Of a stretch of DNA of 64,000 nt, positions 54,444 to 61,995 are shown piece by piece. Source of the stretch: an uncultured Colwellia sp. (GTDB lineage Bacteria > Pseudomonadota > Gammaproteobacteria > Enterobacterales > Alteromonadaceae); contig CAJXRC010000001.1 in assembly GCA_913058405.1 (NCBI GenBank), positions 1 to 64,000 of the forward strand, in the 5' to 3' direction. The position numbers were made by a program, and so were the translations under genes. Every line of letters starts with the position of its first letter. Position 1 is the first letter of the stretch. The notes beneath the pieces were generated by a model. It was not told the origin of the DNA, ran no database searches, and saw only the letters and a program-made list of their open reading frames with translations.

Positions 54444-54499
54444 TGGCTTTAACTCCTGGTTCAGACCGGTAAAAAGTACCGGTATTTACAATCCTTAGC

Positions 54500-54690
54500 T
54501 AATAATTACTTACTAGCTAAGCCATAACGGCGAGGACCAGAAAAATCTAGGAAATATCTGGGTAATCACCATCTACGTAGGATAAATTAAGTAGTTAAAT
54601 CAGAAGAAATAACTACACCTACGGTCTTGGACGGGGGTTGTGTATTTATCAGTAATTGATACTGAAAATTGCACAACTCCTACCAAAATT
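54500..54690 (-). promoter_or_regulatory. L10 leader (autoregulatory r-protein leader RNA)
   Basis: minus strand AAGACCGTAGGTGTAGTTA...TAACTACTTAATTTATCCTACGTAGATGGTGAT resembles the enterobacterial L10 leader core (AAGACCGnAGG...CCTnCGTAGACGGTGA). Confidence 0.75.
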
Positions 54691-54695
54691 TAAGG

Positions 54696-54724
54696 GGCGA
54701 AATTATAGATTATAATTTCGCCCT
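54696..54724. repeat. perfect hairpin between rplA and rplJ leader
   Basis: GGGCGAAATTATA-gat-TATAATTTCGCCC, 13-bp stem. Confidence 0.8.
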
Positions 54725-54787
54725 TGTAAAGATTCAATACACAAAACTTTACTCAATAATATTATACGTAATAAATTACAGGTAATA

Positions 54788-55489: not shown

Positions 55490-55918
55490 TTAGTCCTCTA
55501 CCACTAAACCCATTGAACGAGCAGAACCCGCAATGGTACGCACTGCAGCTTCAAGTGAACCAGCAGTTAAATCAGGTTCTTTTGTCTTAACGATTTCTTC
55601 AAGTTGAGCTGTAGTAACAGTTCCAACTTTATCAGTGTTAGGACGACCAGAGCCGCTTTTGATTCCAGCAGCTTTTTTCAATAAGAAAGAAGCAGGTGGA
55701 GTTTTTGTTTCGAAAGTAAACGAACGGTCACTATATACAGTAATTACTACTGGAACCGGAGCGCCTTTTTCTAAAGAATCTGTTTTCGCATTGAACGCTT
55801 TACAGAATTCCATGATGTTAACACCATGTTGACCTAATGCAGGACCAACTGGTGGTGACGGGTTAGCTGCACCAGCAGCTACTTGTAGCTTGATTAAAGC
55901 TTGGACTTTCTTAGCCAT
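55490..55918 (-). CDS. rplK: 50S ribosomal protein L11
   Basis: [43 protein letters not shown]. Confidence 0.99.
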
Positions 55919-56190
55919 TTTAAAATACCTTTAGTTTGGGTAGTTAACGCAATTAACTTAGCATTAAGTTGGAATTCACCATCTCGACACAAAGTTTTCG
56001 CTTCCCTGTTTACAAAATTCGCTTTAAAAACAATTGTTTTCACAACAGAATAAAGCGCATTTAGTGCGCGCTAAAAATAAGCGGCAGCGGATTATATATT
56101 AACCACCTATCTCATTTCAAGCGCTTTTATTGTTACCTGAAAAATAGTCACACGTTCAAATCATGTCGCATCACTTTTTTCCCTGTAAAA

Positions 56191-57291
56191 TCAGCGTTTT
56201 TCAGCTACTTTATTCGTAGTTGATATGGTTGCTTCAATGCGGCGATTTTGTTCGTGAGCTTCAGCTGTATTATCTGTATTGAGTAATTCGCTTTCACCAT
56301 AACCTATCGCACTTAAACGACTTGCATCAACACCAAAGTCATTAATTAACACATCAACAACAGCCTGAGCACGCTTAGCAGATAAAGTCTGGTTATATGC
56401 AGCACTTCCTTTTGCTGAACTATGCCCTTTAATGGTTAAACTAAGATCTGGGTAAGCTTCCATAAATTTAGCAACTTTAACCATAATTGGTTTGTATTTG
56501 TCTTTAACTACGGCTTTATTACTATCAAAGTTAATAAGTAACTCAACTGTATCTTGCGCTTCAGTAAAAACAGTACAACCTACTTCATTTACTTTGTCTG
56601 TTGCAGGAGTATTAGCACAATTATCTTTGCTATCTAACACGCCGTCGTTATCACTATCTAATTCAGCAATAGGAGCCACAACAGCAACAGGTGCAACAAC
56701 TGCAGCGGCTTTAACTGGCTCACTACGCTTTATTTCAGCTTTTTGTGTACCAAAGAAATAGATGAAACCTAACTTAGCAGAAACATCGGTGTAATTATCT
56801 TCAAACTGGTAGTGACCTTTTCCTTCAAAATAAAGCGCCATATTTTTGCTTAAATAATGACGGTATCCAGCACCTAACGCTGCAGAAAGATTTGATTCCT
56901 CAACATCTAAAACATCAGCACCACCAACGACATAAAAACTCTCTTTGAATGGGAAATATAATAAATCTAGTGCGATACTTTTTCCTGAGGCTAAATTAGC
57001 GTTATGATTCTCAGCAACTGGATTAAAGTGCGTATAAGATAATCTCGTTTCAAATAATTCTGAAAGACGGTAACCACCTTCAACACCTAAGCCTGAAGCA
57101 TGGTCAATTGATGAATTGGCATTAGCATTAAATTGACGGTCTTCATCTGTTTTCAAGTACATGGCATGACCACCAAGATATACTTTGCCAACTAAACTTT
57201 CAGCACTTGGCTGCTCGGCAGCTGATAATGATAAAGAAAAAATTGATAAACCGATAAATTGGCTTATTTTTGAAACTGATAAGTAGCGCAT
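56191..57291 (-). CDS. OmpA-family outer-membrane protein with thrombospondin type-3-like linker
   Basis: signal peptide, beta-barrel, DSDNDGVLDSKDNCANTPATDKVNEVGC, C-terminal OmpA peptidoglycan-binding domain. Confidence 0.92.
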   Translation of the reverse strand: MRYLSVSKISQFIGLSIFSLSLSAAEQPSAESLVGKVYLGGHAMYLKTDEDRQFNANANSSIDHASGLGVEGGYRLSELFETRLSYTHFNPVAENHNANLASGKSIALDLLYFPFKESFYVVGGADVLDVEESNLSAALGAGYRHYLSKNMALYFEGKGHYQFEDNYTDVSAKLGFIYFFGTQKAEIKRSEPVKAAAVVAPVAVVAPIAELDSDNDGVLDSKDNCANTPATDKVNEVGCTVFTEAQDTVELLINFDSNKAVVKDKYKPIMVKVAKFMEAYPDLSLTIKGHSSAKGSAAYNQTLSAKRAQAVVDVLINDFGVDASRLSAIGYGESELLNTDNTAEAHEQNRRIEATISTTNKVAEKR

Positions 57292-57539
57292 TACAAATTA
57301 TCCCTATAAATGTAGTCGAATGATTGGTTTTTTAACGGCGCATATTTTAATCGTTTTTCACTCATGTTGCAGCATTTAGTTATCAAAATGTATTAATATC
57401 TTGCAAATTGTGATGAAAAACACGCTGACAAGCTGAATTTCATGCTATAGACAACCGATTTCGATATATTGGCTAAAACCTCTTACATTTAATAATTTGA
57501 TTTTAGTTATAATGCCCACATAAAAATGTCAGTCCCATT

Positions 57540-58370
57540 ATGCCTAGGTTTCATATGTCTCTATTTGCACACAGCAGCAAACTACAAAGGTTTGTTGAAA
57601 GTGAAAAATTCCAAAATTTTATTATTTTCCTCATCCTCTTTAATGCAATTAGTCTGGGTCTTGAAACAAGTCAGTTTGGTAAAGCCAATACTGGTCTTCT
57701 ACACACTATAGATACGACCATACTAGTACTGTTCACCATAGAGCTGTTATTAAAATTTATTGTTTATCGAAAGCAGTTTTTTCGTTCAGGTTGGAACTGG
57801 TTTGATTTTATAATCGTTGCCACTTCTTGGGCGCCTACAAGCGGTGCATTATCAGTTTTACGCGCCTTTAGAATATTAAGGGTTTTACGCTTACTTTCTG
57901 TCGTTCCGCAAATGCGCCGTGTGATCGGCGCACTCGGACATTCATTACCAGGTATGGCTTCAGTAGTTGGCGTCTTAAGCATTATCTTTTATGTCTCTGC
58001 AGTACTAACCACTAAAATATTTGGTACCCATAGTGATGCGAACATGCAGGAATGGTTTGGTAACATTGGTGCTTCTGCTTACACCCTATTTCAGGTAATG
58101 ACATTAGAAAGTTGGTCTATGGGGATAGTTCGTCCAACGATGGAGTTATTTCCTCTTTCTTGGCTATTCTTCGTACCCTTTATCATTATTACCAGCTTCG
58201 CGGTTCTTAACTTATTTATTGGTATTATCGTTGATGCGATGCAAGTTATGCATGAAGAAGAAGGTAAACCTAAACAAGTCATAGCAACTAAAGAAGATAT
58301 GATAATGCTTGAGCAAAAAATAGATAAGCTAAGTCAATTACTACATAGTAAATCAGAGCCTAATAAATAG
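57540..58370 (+). CDS. bacterial voltage-gated sodium channel (BacNav/NaChBac-type ion transporter)
   Basis: S4 VLRAFRILRVLRLLSVVPQMRRVIGAL; selectivity filter TLESWSM; S6 FAVLNLFIGIIVDAM; C-terminal coiled coil. Confidence 0.93.
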   Translation: MPRFHMSLFAHSSKLQRFVESEKFQNFIIFLILFNAISLGLETSQFGKANTGLLHTIDTTILVLFTIELLLKFIVYRKQFFRSGWNWFDFIIVATSWAPTSGALSVLRAFRILRVLRLLSVVPQMRRVIGALGHSLPGMASVVGVLSIIFYVSAVLTTKIFGTHSDANMQEWFGNIGASAYTLFQVMTLESWSMGIVRPTMELFPLSWLFFVPFIIITSFAVLNLFIGIIVDAMQVMHEEEGKPKQVIATKEDMIMLEQKIDKLSQLLHSKSEPNK

Positions 58371-58467
58371 TAGGATAAAATATTATCTTATGTGATTAAA
58401 GTATTACCAAATCGATAGCGATAAGTTAAGGTTATCTTTATAAAAAATATAATCTTACGGTAAAAAA

Positions 58468-60288
58468 ATGACATCGGTCACCCTTTATTCTTATTTATGT
58501 AAATTACTGCTACTTGCTATGATGATCCTTATCTCCGCTTGTAGCAACACACCACAACCAAGCAACCCACCGACCCTAGCTAAGGCTAATATTTATATTA
58601 ACCAGCTGGCTTTTGATATCCAAGCGCCCAAACAGGCTGTGATTGTTTTACCTATAGGTGAAATAGCGACGCGATTTATTGTTTACCAGGGCTCAAACAT
58701 GATTTATCAAGGTAAGCTCACTTCTCAACCAAGCTTCACCGAATGGGGACAAGGTGCTCACTACTACCTCGCTGATTTTTCTCAAGTAAAACGAAGAGGT
58801 GAATTTCATATAGTAGTAAACACACGCAAGCAACAACTAGCTTCCTCAACATTTGCCATTAAACATAATGCTTACTTTGCCCTTACAGCTAAGTCACTAG
58901 TTAATTACTTTAAAGCAAGTCGACACTCTAGTCCGATAGATGAATCTATTCGCATCAATGGTACGGAGCGTTATGTTAACGTTTCAGGTGGTTGGGTTAA
59001 TTCAGGAGGGGATCAGGGTAAACACTTAAGTCAGCATAGTGAATCTAATGTTTTAGTATCACAACAAGGAGCTATAGCTGCATGGGCGATGGCAAAATCT
59101 TATGATAGTTTATATAGGTTATACGATCGTAAAGCGTTAACACTCGCACTCGCCGAAGAAGTTATTTGGGGTGCTGATTACTTACATAGAATATTAGACA
59201 CCGAAGGTTATTTTTATAGCAATATTTACGACCGACGAGGTTTGGCTGAAGAACGTATAATTACCGGCTATGAAGGACCTGAAGCAGAATTTAATACTAA
59301 TTTTCAAGCTGCCTTTCGTGAGGGCGGAGGCATGGCTATTGCCGCACTAACCCGAGCACATGAACTCAGTAATAAAACAGGCGTTCAAGGTGAGTTTTCT
59401 GCAAAGCAGTATTTAATTGACGCTGAACGAGCTTTTGCCCATTTACAAAAGAACAACCTACGTTATGTCGACAATGGTAAAGAAAACATTATCGATGATT
59501 ATACTGCGCTTATTGCCGCGACTGAGCTTTATCGCATAACAAAAAAATCACAATATTTAAAAGCCGCGCGCCACCGTGCTCATAACTTAAATAACAGAAT
59601 GACATCCCAAGGTTGGTTTGTCAGCGATGATGACGAAAGACCTTTTTATCATGGTGTTGAAGCCGGTCTCCCTATTATTGCCTTGGTCGACTATTTAGCA
59701 ATAGAGCGGAACCGACAAATTAACACTAAAACTAAACGAACAATTAAACTGTCACTGGATTATCAACTTGCCTTAAACTCCCAAGTTGCTAACCCATTTA
59801 ATTTAGCGCGCCAAACATTTAAAACCAAAAAGGGTAGTCAGTACTCGAAACAAAAGGAAGGTTTTTTTATCCCGCATACTAATGAAAACAGCTATGCTTG
59901 GCAGGGTGAAAACTCTCGTTTGGCCTCACTAACGGCTGCAGCAGTATGGGGAGGTAAAATCACTCACAGTAATAAACACGGAGCTTTTGGTATCAATGAT
60001 GAACTCGCTTATTTTGCACAAAGCCAAATTGATTGGATTTTAGGTAAAAACCCTTACCAAGTGAGTATGTTGTATGGCTTTGGCGTTAATAATCCACCAC
60101 ACACTAAAAGTGCTGGGACTATGTTAAATGGCGGCATTTCAAATGGTATTACTGGCGCCACACTAGGCTTAGATGGCAGCGGTATTACCTGGGCACAAGG
60201 GCCTGATGCTTCTAATTGGCGCTGGACTGAGCAATGGTTACAAAATTCTACTTGGTATTTATTAGCCATGACAGCAATGACTGAGTAA
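58468..60288 (+). CDS. GH9-family glycoside hydrolase lipoprotein with N-terminal Ig-like (cellulase N) domain
   Basis: lipobox LISAC; INQLAFDIQAPKQAVI; GGWVNSGGDQGKH; WQGENSRLASLTAA; DWILGKNPYQVSMLYGFG. Confidence 0.85.
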   Translation: MTSVTLYSYLCKLLLLAMMILISACSNTPQPSNPPTLAKANIYINQLAFDIQAPKQAVIVLPIGEIATRFIVYQGSNMIYQGKLTSQPSFTEWGQGAHYYLADFSQVKRRGEFHIVVNTRKQQLASSTFAIKHNAYFALTAKSLVNYFKASRHSSPIDESIRINGTERYVNVSGGWVNSGGDQGKHLSQHSESNVLVSQQGAIAAWAMAKSYDSLYRLYDRKALTLALAEEVIWGADYLHRILDTEGYFYSNIYDRRGLAEERIITGYEGPEAEFNTNFQAAFREGGGMAIAALTRAHELSNKTGVQGEFSAKQYLIDAERAFAHLQKNNLRYVDNGKENIIDDYTALIAATELYRITKKSQYLKAARHRAHNLNNRMTSQGWFVSDDDERPFYHGVEAGLPIIALVDYLAIERNRQINTKTKRTIKLSLDYQLALNSQVANPFNLARQTFKTKKGSQYSKQKEGFFIPHTNENSYAWQGENSRLASLTAAAVWGGKITHSNKHGAFGINDELAYFAQSQIDWILGKNPYQVSMLYGFGVNNPPHTKSAGTMLNGGISNGITGATLGLDGSGITWAQGPDASNWRWTEQWLQNSTWYLLAMTAMTE

Positions 60289-60505
60289 TTCACATGAACG
60301 GGCTCGGTTATTTTCCTGAGTCCGTCACCCCTATTTAGCCCTCTTGTTCATATATTTATGAGTAGAATACTTTGCTCAATACCATGATGACTGCATCGTT
60401 TTATTGAACGGCTGCCCATTGGGCGATGATTGATTAATGTGTACTATCCTCCCTTTATTCTAACAAATATAATTATACTTCAGAGTGTTAAATTTCGATT
60501 TAAAG

Positions 60506-60540
60506 GCAAAAAAAAACGCTTGCACAAGGCAAGCGTTTCT
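60506..60540 (-). terminator. intrinsic terminator of secE-nusG
   Basis: minus strand AAACGCTTGC-cttgt-GCAAGCGTTTTTTTTT. Confidence 0.92.
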
Positions 60541-60565
60541 ATATCAAGTTGGGCTGAGTCGCTGC

Positions 60566-61183
60566 TTAGCTACCCTTTTCAACTTGACCAAATTCTAAAT
60601 CAACTGGCGTTGAACGACCGAAAATAAGTACTGAAACTTTAATACGGTTTTTCTCGTAATCAAGCTCTTCAACCACACCATTAAAGTCAGCAAATGGTCC
60701 GTCGATAACACGGATAACTTCGCCTGGTTCAAACAATGTTTTAGGCTTCGGCTTATCTGTTTCTTCAAGACGTTGTAGAATACGATCCGCTTCTTTTTGA
60801 GTAATAGGCGCTGGACGGTCACTTGTACCACCAATAAAGCCTAGTACACGTGGTACGCTTTTCACTAAATGCCAAGCATCAACGTCCATTTCCATTTGTA
60901 CTAAAACGTATCCAGGGAAAAATTTACGAGAACTTTTACGCTTTTGACCAGCACGCATCTCCACTACTTCTTCAGTAGGGACTAAAATCTCACCAAACTT
61001 ATCTTCTAAGCCGTGGATTCCAATGTGCTCTTTCAATGTTTTTTGAACGCGACCTTCATAACCTGAAAATGCTTGTACTACATACCAACGCAATTTCGGG
61101 TTTCTATTGACTTGATTTTCTGCATTTTCTGCCGCTGAAATCTCTTCTGGGTTATTTTCTTCTGACATATTTTCTTCAGACAT
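60566..61183 (-). CDS. nusG: transcription termination/antitermination protein NusG
   Basis: [59 protein letters not shown]; start at [10 protein letters not shown]. Confidence 0.97.
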
Positions 61184-61185
61184 AA

Positions 61186-61566
61186 CTAAACCTGCATACC
61201 TGTAACTAAACCAACTAACCAGAATAGAACAGAGTCTAATCCCCAAAGTAGCAATGACATTAATAACGTCACTACTAATACAATACCTGTCGTTTGTACG
61301 GCTTCTTGGCGTGTTGGCCAAACAACTTTACGTACTTCAGTACGAGCTTCTTTTGCAAATATAGCAGCATTACGACCTTTTTCAGTTTGTAATGCAATTA
61401 AACCAGCAATACCAACCATGACTACAACAGCCACTGCTCTAATTAATACTGACTCTTCACCGTAAACGTAATTACCCGCAACAGCACCAGCTAAAAGTAA
61501 GAATATAACTCCCCACTTTACCGCATCGAAAGAACTGCTTGGTTGCTCTTCTGTACTTGCATTCAT
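61186..61566 (-). CDS. secE: preprotein translocase subunit SecE
   Basis: three TM helices, [24 protein letters not shown]. Confidence 0.96.
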
Positions 61567-61734: not shown

Positions 61735-61955
61735 GCAACAGATTTGAATTATACTGATGCACGGGCAAAGGTAAAGAGTAAAGGTCATTTTTTTTCGTGT
61801 TTATGGTTCGTTCGACTGTTTTATCTACAAAGTGCTAGTAAACTAGCCGGTTATACCAAGTGTTCATTATATAATTGAAAATGGGCAGGGGTTCTTTTGA
61901 GCGTAATAATTAAGTTTGCTTAACAATTGCGCTAATTGATTACGGCAAATACATA

Positions 61956-61988
61956 GAGCACCAACATTATTCATTTATGCTGGCGCTC
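61956..61988 (-). terminator. hairpin 3' of aceK
   Basis: minus strand GAGCGCCAGCAT...ATGTTGGTGCTC fully pairable with G-U; weak T-run. Confidence 0.5.
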
Positions 61989-61995
61989 TTATTTA

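Follow-up and report, generated by a model that had tools for sequence, protein, structure and literature searches.

In the DNA analysed here, 64,000 nucleotides from an uncultured member of the cold-loving marine genus Colwellia (the whole stretch is called the window), the conserved gene order secE-nusG-rplKAJL-rpoBC is interrupted between nusG and rplK by 4.65 kb of DNA (55919-60565). The insert holds three genes: an ompA-type gene, nav, which encodes a predicted voltage-gated sodium channel, and gh9, which encodes a lipoprotein of glycoside hydrolase family 9 (GH9). Our results indicate that this block is very probably cargo, taken up at an operon boundary that already existed, with a terminator on one side and the rplK promoter on the other. 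Gene coordinates and Pfam domains agree that the block proposed in a preliminary description of the window is real, with two of its three genes (nav and gh9) on the strand opposite to nusG and rplK. The secE-nusG/rplKAJL-rpoBC cluster of Gammaproteobacteria shares with the window the gene order, an rplK promoter and a leader; unlike the window, the usual cluster carries no such cargo between nusG and rplK.

The junction was extracted from 39 Colwellia genomes, 35 of which have nusG and rplK on one contig (G and L numbers denote sampled genomes and loci, g genera and f families; G000 is the window genome). It is tight, 255-432 bp, in 16/35. The remaining junctions span 1.4-4.8 kb and, G002 excepted, hold ompA, nav and gh9, or a subset of them, in constant order and orientation, the complete trio being found in G000, G003, G010, G012, G013, G023 and G024. 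Homology is unbroken from secE to rplA among the trio carriers, and named species with nav at the junction are Colwellia sp. 75C3, C. ponticola OISW-25 and Colwellia sp. 12G3. An assembly artefact fusing unrelated contigs might be suspected in a draft genome of 422 contigs, in which a second oddity, the lack of tufB and four tRNA genes beside tRNA-Trp, lies 1.2 kb away. Misassembly is nevertheless ruled out, its probability being negligible, because the identical trio occupies the same place in six other species, including G010, whose genome is a single contig of 5,373,180 bases.

Tight and open Colwellia junctions have the same predicted promoter, TTGAAA-18-TATAAT-CCGCTGCCGC, about 140-180 bp 5' of rplK (somewhat farther in G009). 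The rplK gene of Escherichia coli likewise has its own promoter. Downstream of it, both kinds of Colwellia junction carry a leader with a conserved pair, CAGGGAAGCG ... GCGTTAACTACCC; a scan with Rfam matched this region to no known leader. The repressor uL1 of Proteobacteria has its site in the 5' untranslated region ahead of rplK (PMC10931766), and the conserved pair is likely to be the uL1 autoregulatory stem. At the other end, the nusG stop is followed within about 80 bp by a terminator hairpin in nearly all Colwellia junctions; in several tight genomes (G001, G025, G035 and G017) this hairpin is homologous to the one found in block carriers. The block sits between these two signals. Another hairpin, between ompA and rplK, has homologs with z scores of -3.4 in the window, -7.6 in G012, where it is more perfect, and -3.1 in G010.

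The separate transcription of nusG and rplK, and a terminator belonging to nusG (hairpin and T tract at 60540-60512), had both been proposed for the window, and the predicted sites agree with this. The further claim that the block forces independent promoters on its neighbours reverses cause and effect, because the terminator and the rplK promoter are also found at the same sites in species without the block. Judged from these predicted sites, the separate signals are older than the block, and the independence of the two units preceded the insertion and made it tolerable.

In a tree of rpoB, every block carrier but G034 falls in a single clade of 18 species (Shimodaira-Hasegawa-like approximate likelihood ratio test, SH-aLRT, 100), and 18/18 of these species have the block or its remnants. 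Complete trios occur in both subclades, and therefore the trio was already present in the common ancestor of the clade. It was gained once, on the stem of this clade, which bears out the earlier suggestion of a lineage-specific rearrangement. Losses are many: ompA is lost or decayed in G004, G006, G008, G009, G011, G018, G028 and G030; nav is broken in G020 and lost from G004, G028 and G015; gh9 is reduced to remnants in G008, G015, G018, G019, G020 and G030, and absent from G009. Some junctions have also gained genes: G008 and G034 hold a helix-turn-helix (HTH) regulator set, and G018 holds a substrate-binding protein.

Two genomes stand apart. The junction of G002, sister of the 18-species clade, holds an AraC-type regulator, and nav is found at another locus (L227, G002:C14:109407-110168). 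This second-site copy, away from nusG-rplK, is 82% identical to the block nav and has no gh9 or ompA within ~5 kb. The junction of G034 holds nav and gh9, but its placement is unsettled because its rpoB fragment resembles that of genus g27. On its contig C159 (L042, L220), rplK and the rpoB fragment are g27-like, while the nusG side and the cargo are like those of the Colwellia clade. This mixed affinity may stem from recombination across the junction or from chimeric assembly of this draft genome.

The cargo genes differ in how well they have been kept. The ratios of nonsynonymous to synonymous substitution rates (dN/dS) among intact junction orthologs are rough because many of the pairs approach saturation in dS; the medians are 0.13 for ompA (10 orthologs), 0.05 for nav (15) and 0.08 for gh9 (12). 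The ompA product has a signal peptide, a TSP3 linker and, as in the OmpA family, an N-terminal beta-barrel and a C-terminal OmpA peptidoglycan-binding domain. The nav product has the Ion_trans domain, S4 arginines and T-x-E-S-W filter of the bacterial sodium channels (BacNav), and is predicted to be a NavMs/NavAb-like voltage-gated Na+ channel. Its best match in the PDB is 5hvx (E = 1.7e-73), which we take to be NavMs, and its filter, TLESWSM, is that of NavMs in the aligned stretch. Unlike NavMs and NavAb, it is a second BacNav copy, sited in the block; a paralog ~35% identical to it occurs throughout the genus. Both S4 and the filter FQVMTLESWSMGIV are invariant in 15/15 junction channels. 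Where retained, nav is under strong purifying selection.

The gh9 product has a lipobox (ISAC) and the CelD_N and GH9 domains of GH9 exo-enzymes, and it matches the exo-acting GH9 entries 3h7l, 5dgq and 6gdt of the PDB (E about 1e-95). The match to the exo-glucosaminidase/glucosidase of Vibrionaceae (VC0615, PBPRA0520, VP2484) is full-length; unlike these enzymes, gh9 encodes a lipoprotein with species-variable active-site residues. The roles postulated for VC0615 are those of base for Asp140, water holder for Asp144 and acid for Glu546 (PMC6096475). The aligned residues of the window copy are Asn178, Asp182 and Glu588, and the triad therefore lacks its base Asp. Of the 12 intact gh9 copies, 5 no longer have the base, 6 lack the second Asp and 2 the acid, and all three residues are retained solely in G010, G003 and G012. 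Both Asp are retained by GH9 homologues, 47-49% identical, at other loci of the genus and the family. The alignments show that gh9 is losing its catalytic residues. The decay hits different sites in different species with the reading frame still open; in G004 and G028 all three positions are replaced (Asn/Asn/Gln).

The constant order and orientation of the block, the low dN/dS of nav and its invariant S4 and filter in 15 species could also suit a purposeful module kept beside a growth-rate-controlled operon, either for dosage near a highly expressed region or to couple Na+ entry to translation. We consider this unlikely, given that the genes have been lost independently in sister species with nusG and rplK unaltered, and that the full catalytic triad persists in so few intact gh9 copies. 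The nearest nav relatives in Pseudoalteromonas and Bowmanella do not adjoin nusG, rplK, gh9 or ompA; the nav tree was read for ingroup relations only and not for its root. Nothing in the data supports a functional link of ompA, nav and gh9 to one another or to the ribosomal operon. We also considered, and rejected, that the three genes had been carried over together from another genus: these nav relatives have no neighbouring gh9 or ompA, and hence no donor block was found.

The opening of the junction extends beyond Colwellia. Spacing was measured in 111 genomes of the GTDB family Alteromonadaceae whose nusG and rplK share a contig; its median is 230 bp and its maximum 22.3 kb, and the junction is open (>900 bp) in 23/111, from 13 genera. 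Elsewhere in the order, 78 genomes of other families have a median of 159 bp, and a single one (1/78) is open (Fisher p = 3e-5). The rplA-rplJ junction, the single control interval for enrichment, is opened in 0/112 genomes of the same family (p = 3e-8); relatedness is ignored in both tests. The comparison of spacing called for by the preliminary description thus divides its proviso that the arrangement might be common in the order: the trio is confined to one Colwellia clade, while opening as such recurs in the family and is rare elsewhere. A promoter with a GC-rich discriminator precedes rplK in 21/23 open and 86/87 tight genomes (107/110), versus 15/110 shuffles. The cargo is mostly private to a genus and includes a TauE exporter, an MscS channel, fasciclin, an ABC transporter, histidine kinases, phytochrome, an MFS protein and an AraC regulator, among others; an aldo/keto reductase (g11, g13, g44), a small membrane protein (g13, g18) and sensor kinases recur between genera. 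In family f27, nusG and rplK lie on separate contigs in 3/3 sampled genomes (G229, G248, G265), and therefore nusG may be fully detached from the rplK operon there.

The few cargo genes that recur in neighbouring genera would be expected if the open junction were ancestral in the family and tight genomes had lost their cargo. This is very improbable, since the tight state dominates (87/110 in the family, 77/78 in the other families), the cargo is largely genus-specific, and the open state of Colwellia is nested within tight lineages. We favour instead the entry of cargo into a boundary that was already insulated. Judged from the sequences of relatives, nusG would ancestrally have ended in an intrinsic terminator and rplKAJL-rpoBC would have been transcribed from its own strong promoter with a uL1-regulated leader, across a gap of 250-430 bp. 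Tree and synteny show that DNA with ompA, nav and gh9 was then inserted between terminator and promoter in the ancestor of the 18-species clade. The insertion would have left both transcription units intact and therefore been of low cost. The three genes, presumably transcribed from their own signals, would have been individually dispensable, and were later lost or broken many times. Across the family, the same junction appears to have been refilled with other cargo, mostly without integrases. Since the Colwellia block bears neither an integrase nor a target duplication, and the GC content of ompA, nav and gh9 (0.37-0.41) is not odd but that of the window (0.39), the cargo probably came in through homologous recombination within the strongly conserved genes on either side.

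A class of gene-transfer hotspot between core genes is known that lacks mobile elements and shows recombination at the core genes on its flanks (Oliveira and colleagues 2017, PMC5635113). The nusG-rplK interval resembles these hotspots in being a fixed core-gene interval whose accessory genes differ between genomes, and in being enriched over the one control interval and over the same junction in other families, with relatedness again ignored; in the part of the cargo that was scanned, integrases are mostly absent. Those hotspots were defined within species, whereas the nusG-rplK slot is family-wide and at the edge of a ribosomal protein operon. It can be read as an insulated, mostly mobile-element-free insertion slot, akin to known gene-transfer hotspots. 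We hold it somewhat more probable than not that, throughout Alteromonadaceae in the GTDB sense, the boundary serves as an insulated landing site, where a terminator on one flank and a self-sufficient, growth-regulated promoter on the other have admitted cargo into one of the best conserved bacterial gene orders, and that it has been opened and refilled some ten times or more. Our search of a literature library found no paper on Colwellia sodium channels or nusG-rplK insertions.

Several points weigh against this account. Promoter and terminator are predictions from sequence. With a cut-off of -10 kcal/mol, a nusG terminator is recognisable in 54/87 tight versus 21/23 open genomes of the family; read-through into rplK may therefore be normal in tight genomes without one, and some terminators may have been gained along with cargo. 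The excess in open genomes is consistent with a terminator that permitted insertion, or with one kept or gained with the cargo. A tree of nusG and rplK from 110 genomes gives at least 14 state changes, but the number of independent openings is approximate because this two-gene tree is poorly resolved. As to the route of entry, the block edges gave only chance-like repeats when searched for direct repeats and target-site duplications, and the Colwellia block has no integrase or other mobile element. One family junction, L160, has an IS4-type transposase, in a set of cargo genes that was only partly scanned.

Table 1. Features of the nusG-rplK region in window coordinates.
Feature	Position	Strand	Evidence
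rplK (uL11; leads rplKAJL-rpoBC)	55490..55918	-	Pfam Ribosomal_L11_N/Ribosomal_L11
rplK leader with conserved AAACAGGGAAGCGAAA ... GCGTTAACTACCC	55919..56085	-	Conservation across tight and open Colwellia junctions
rplK promoter TTGAAA-N18-TATAAT, then GC-rich discriminator CCGCTGCCGC	56091..56120	-	Predicted, 11/12 consensus matches
Hairpin separating ompA stop from rplK promoter, likely ompA terminator	56122..56190	-	Fold z = -3.4
ompA-type gene, 366 aa	56191..57291	-	Pfam OmpA
nav, NavMs/NavAb-like voltage-gated sodium channel (predicted), 276 aa	57540..58370	+	Pfam Ion_trans; PDB match 5hvx
gh9, CelD_N and GH9 lipoprotein, 606 aa	58468..60288	+	Pfam Glyco_hydro_9 and CelD_N; PDB matches
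nusG intrinsic terminator hairpin AAACGCTTGCCTTGTGCAAGCGTTTTTTTTT	60512..60540	-	Predicted; T tract after hairpin
nusG, start ATG 61183	60566..61183	-	Pfam NusG and KOW
secE	61186..61566	-	Open reading frame; orthologs adjoin nusG in relatives

Two further observations were made beside the junction. At 61735-61995, homology to relatives ends 10 bp past tRNA-Trp, where the window continues with an aceK-like gene and the relatives have tufB and tRNA-Thr/Gly/Tyr/Thr. These genes were searched for in the rest of the window assembly and not found, which points either to a deletion in the lineage or to a gap in the assembly at the tuf repeat. The rplA-rplJ spacer (54444-54732) gives a full-model match of 67 bits, below the gathering threshold, to the Rfam family Arrc08 (Actinobacillus sRNA 08); it is probably the L10 leader, annotated in Rfam as a small RNA (sRNA).

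Within the conserved order secE-nusG-rplKAJL-rpoBC a single joint can break, and our findings suggest why this one opens and the adjacent one does not. The insertion is real and informative on genome architecture, and the cluster has not been rewired; position beside rplK is a poor guide to function or regulation. The sister species, with tight, full and decaying junctions, form a natural series for testing boundaries made of a terminator and an autonomous promoter as tolerated insertion sites. The recurrence across the family is the part likely to interest specialists, and the Colwellia block itself is well explained as clade-specific cargo in a pre-insulated joint.

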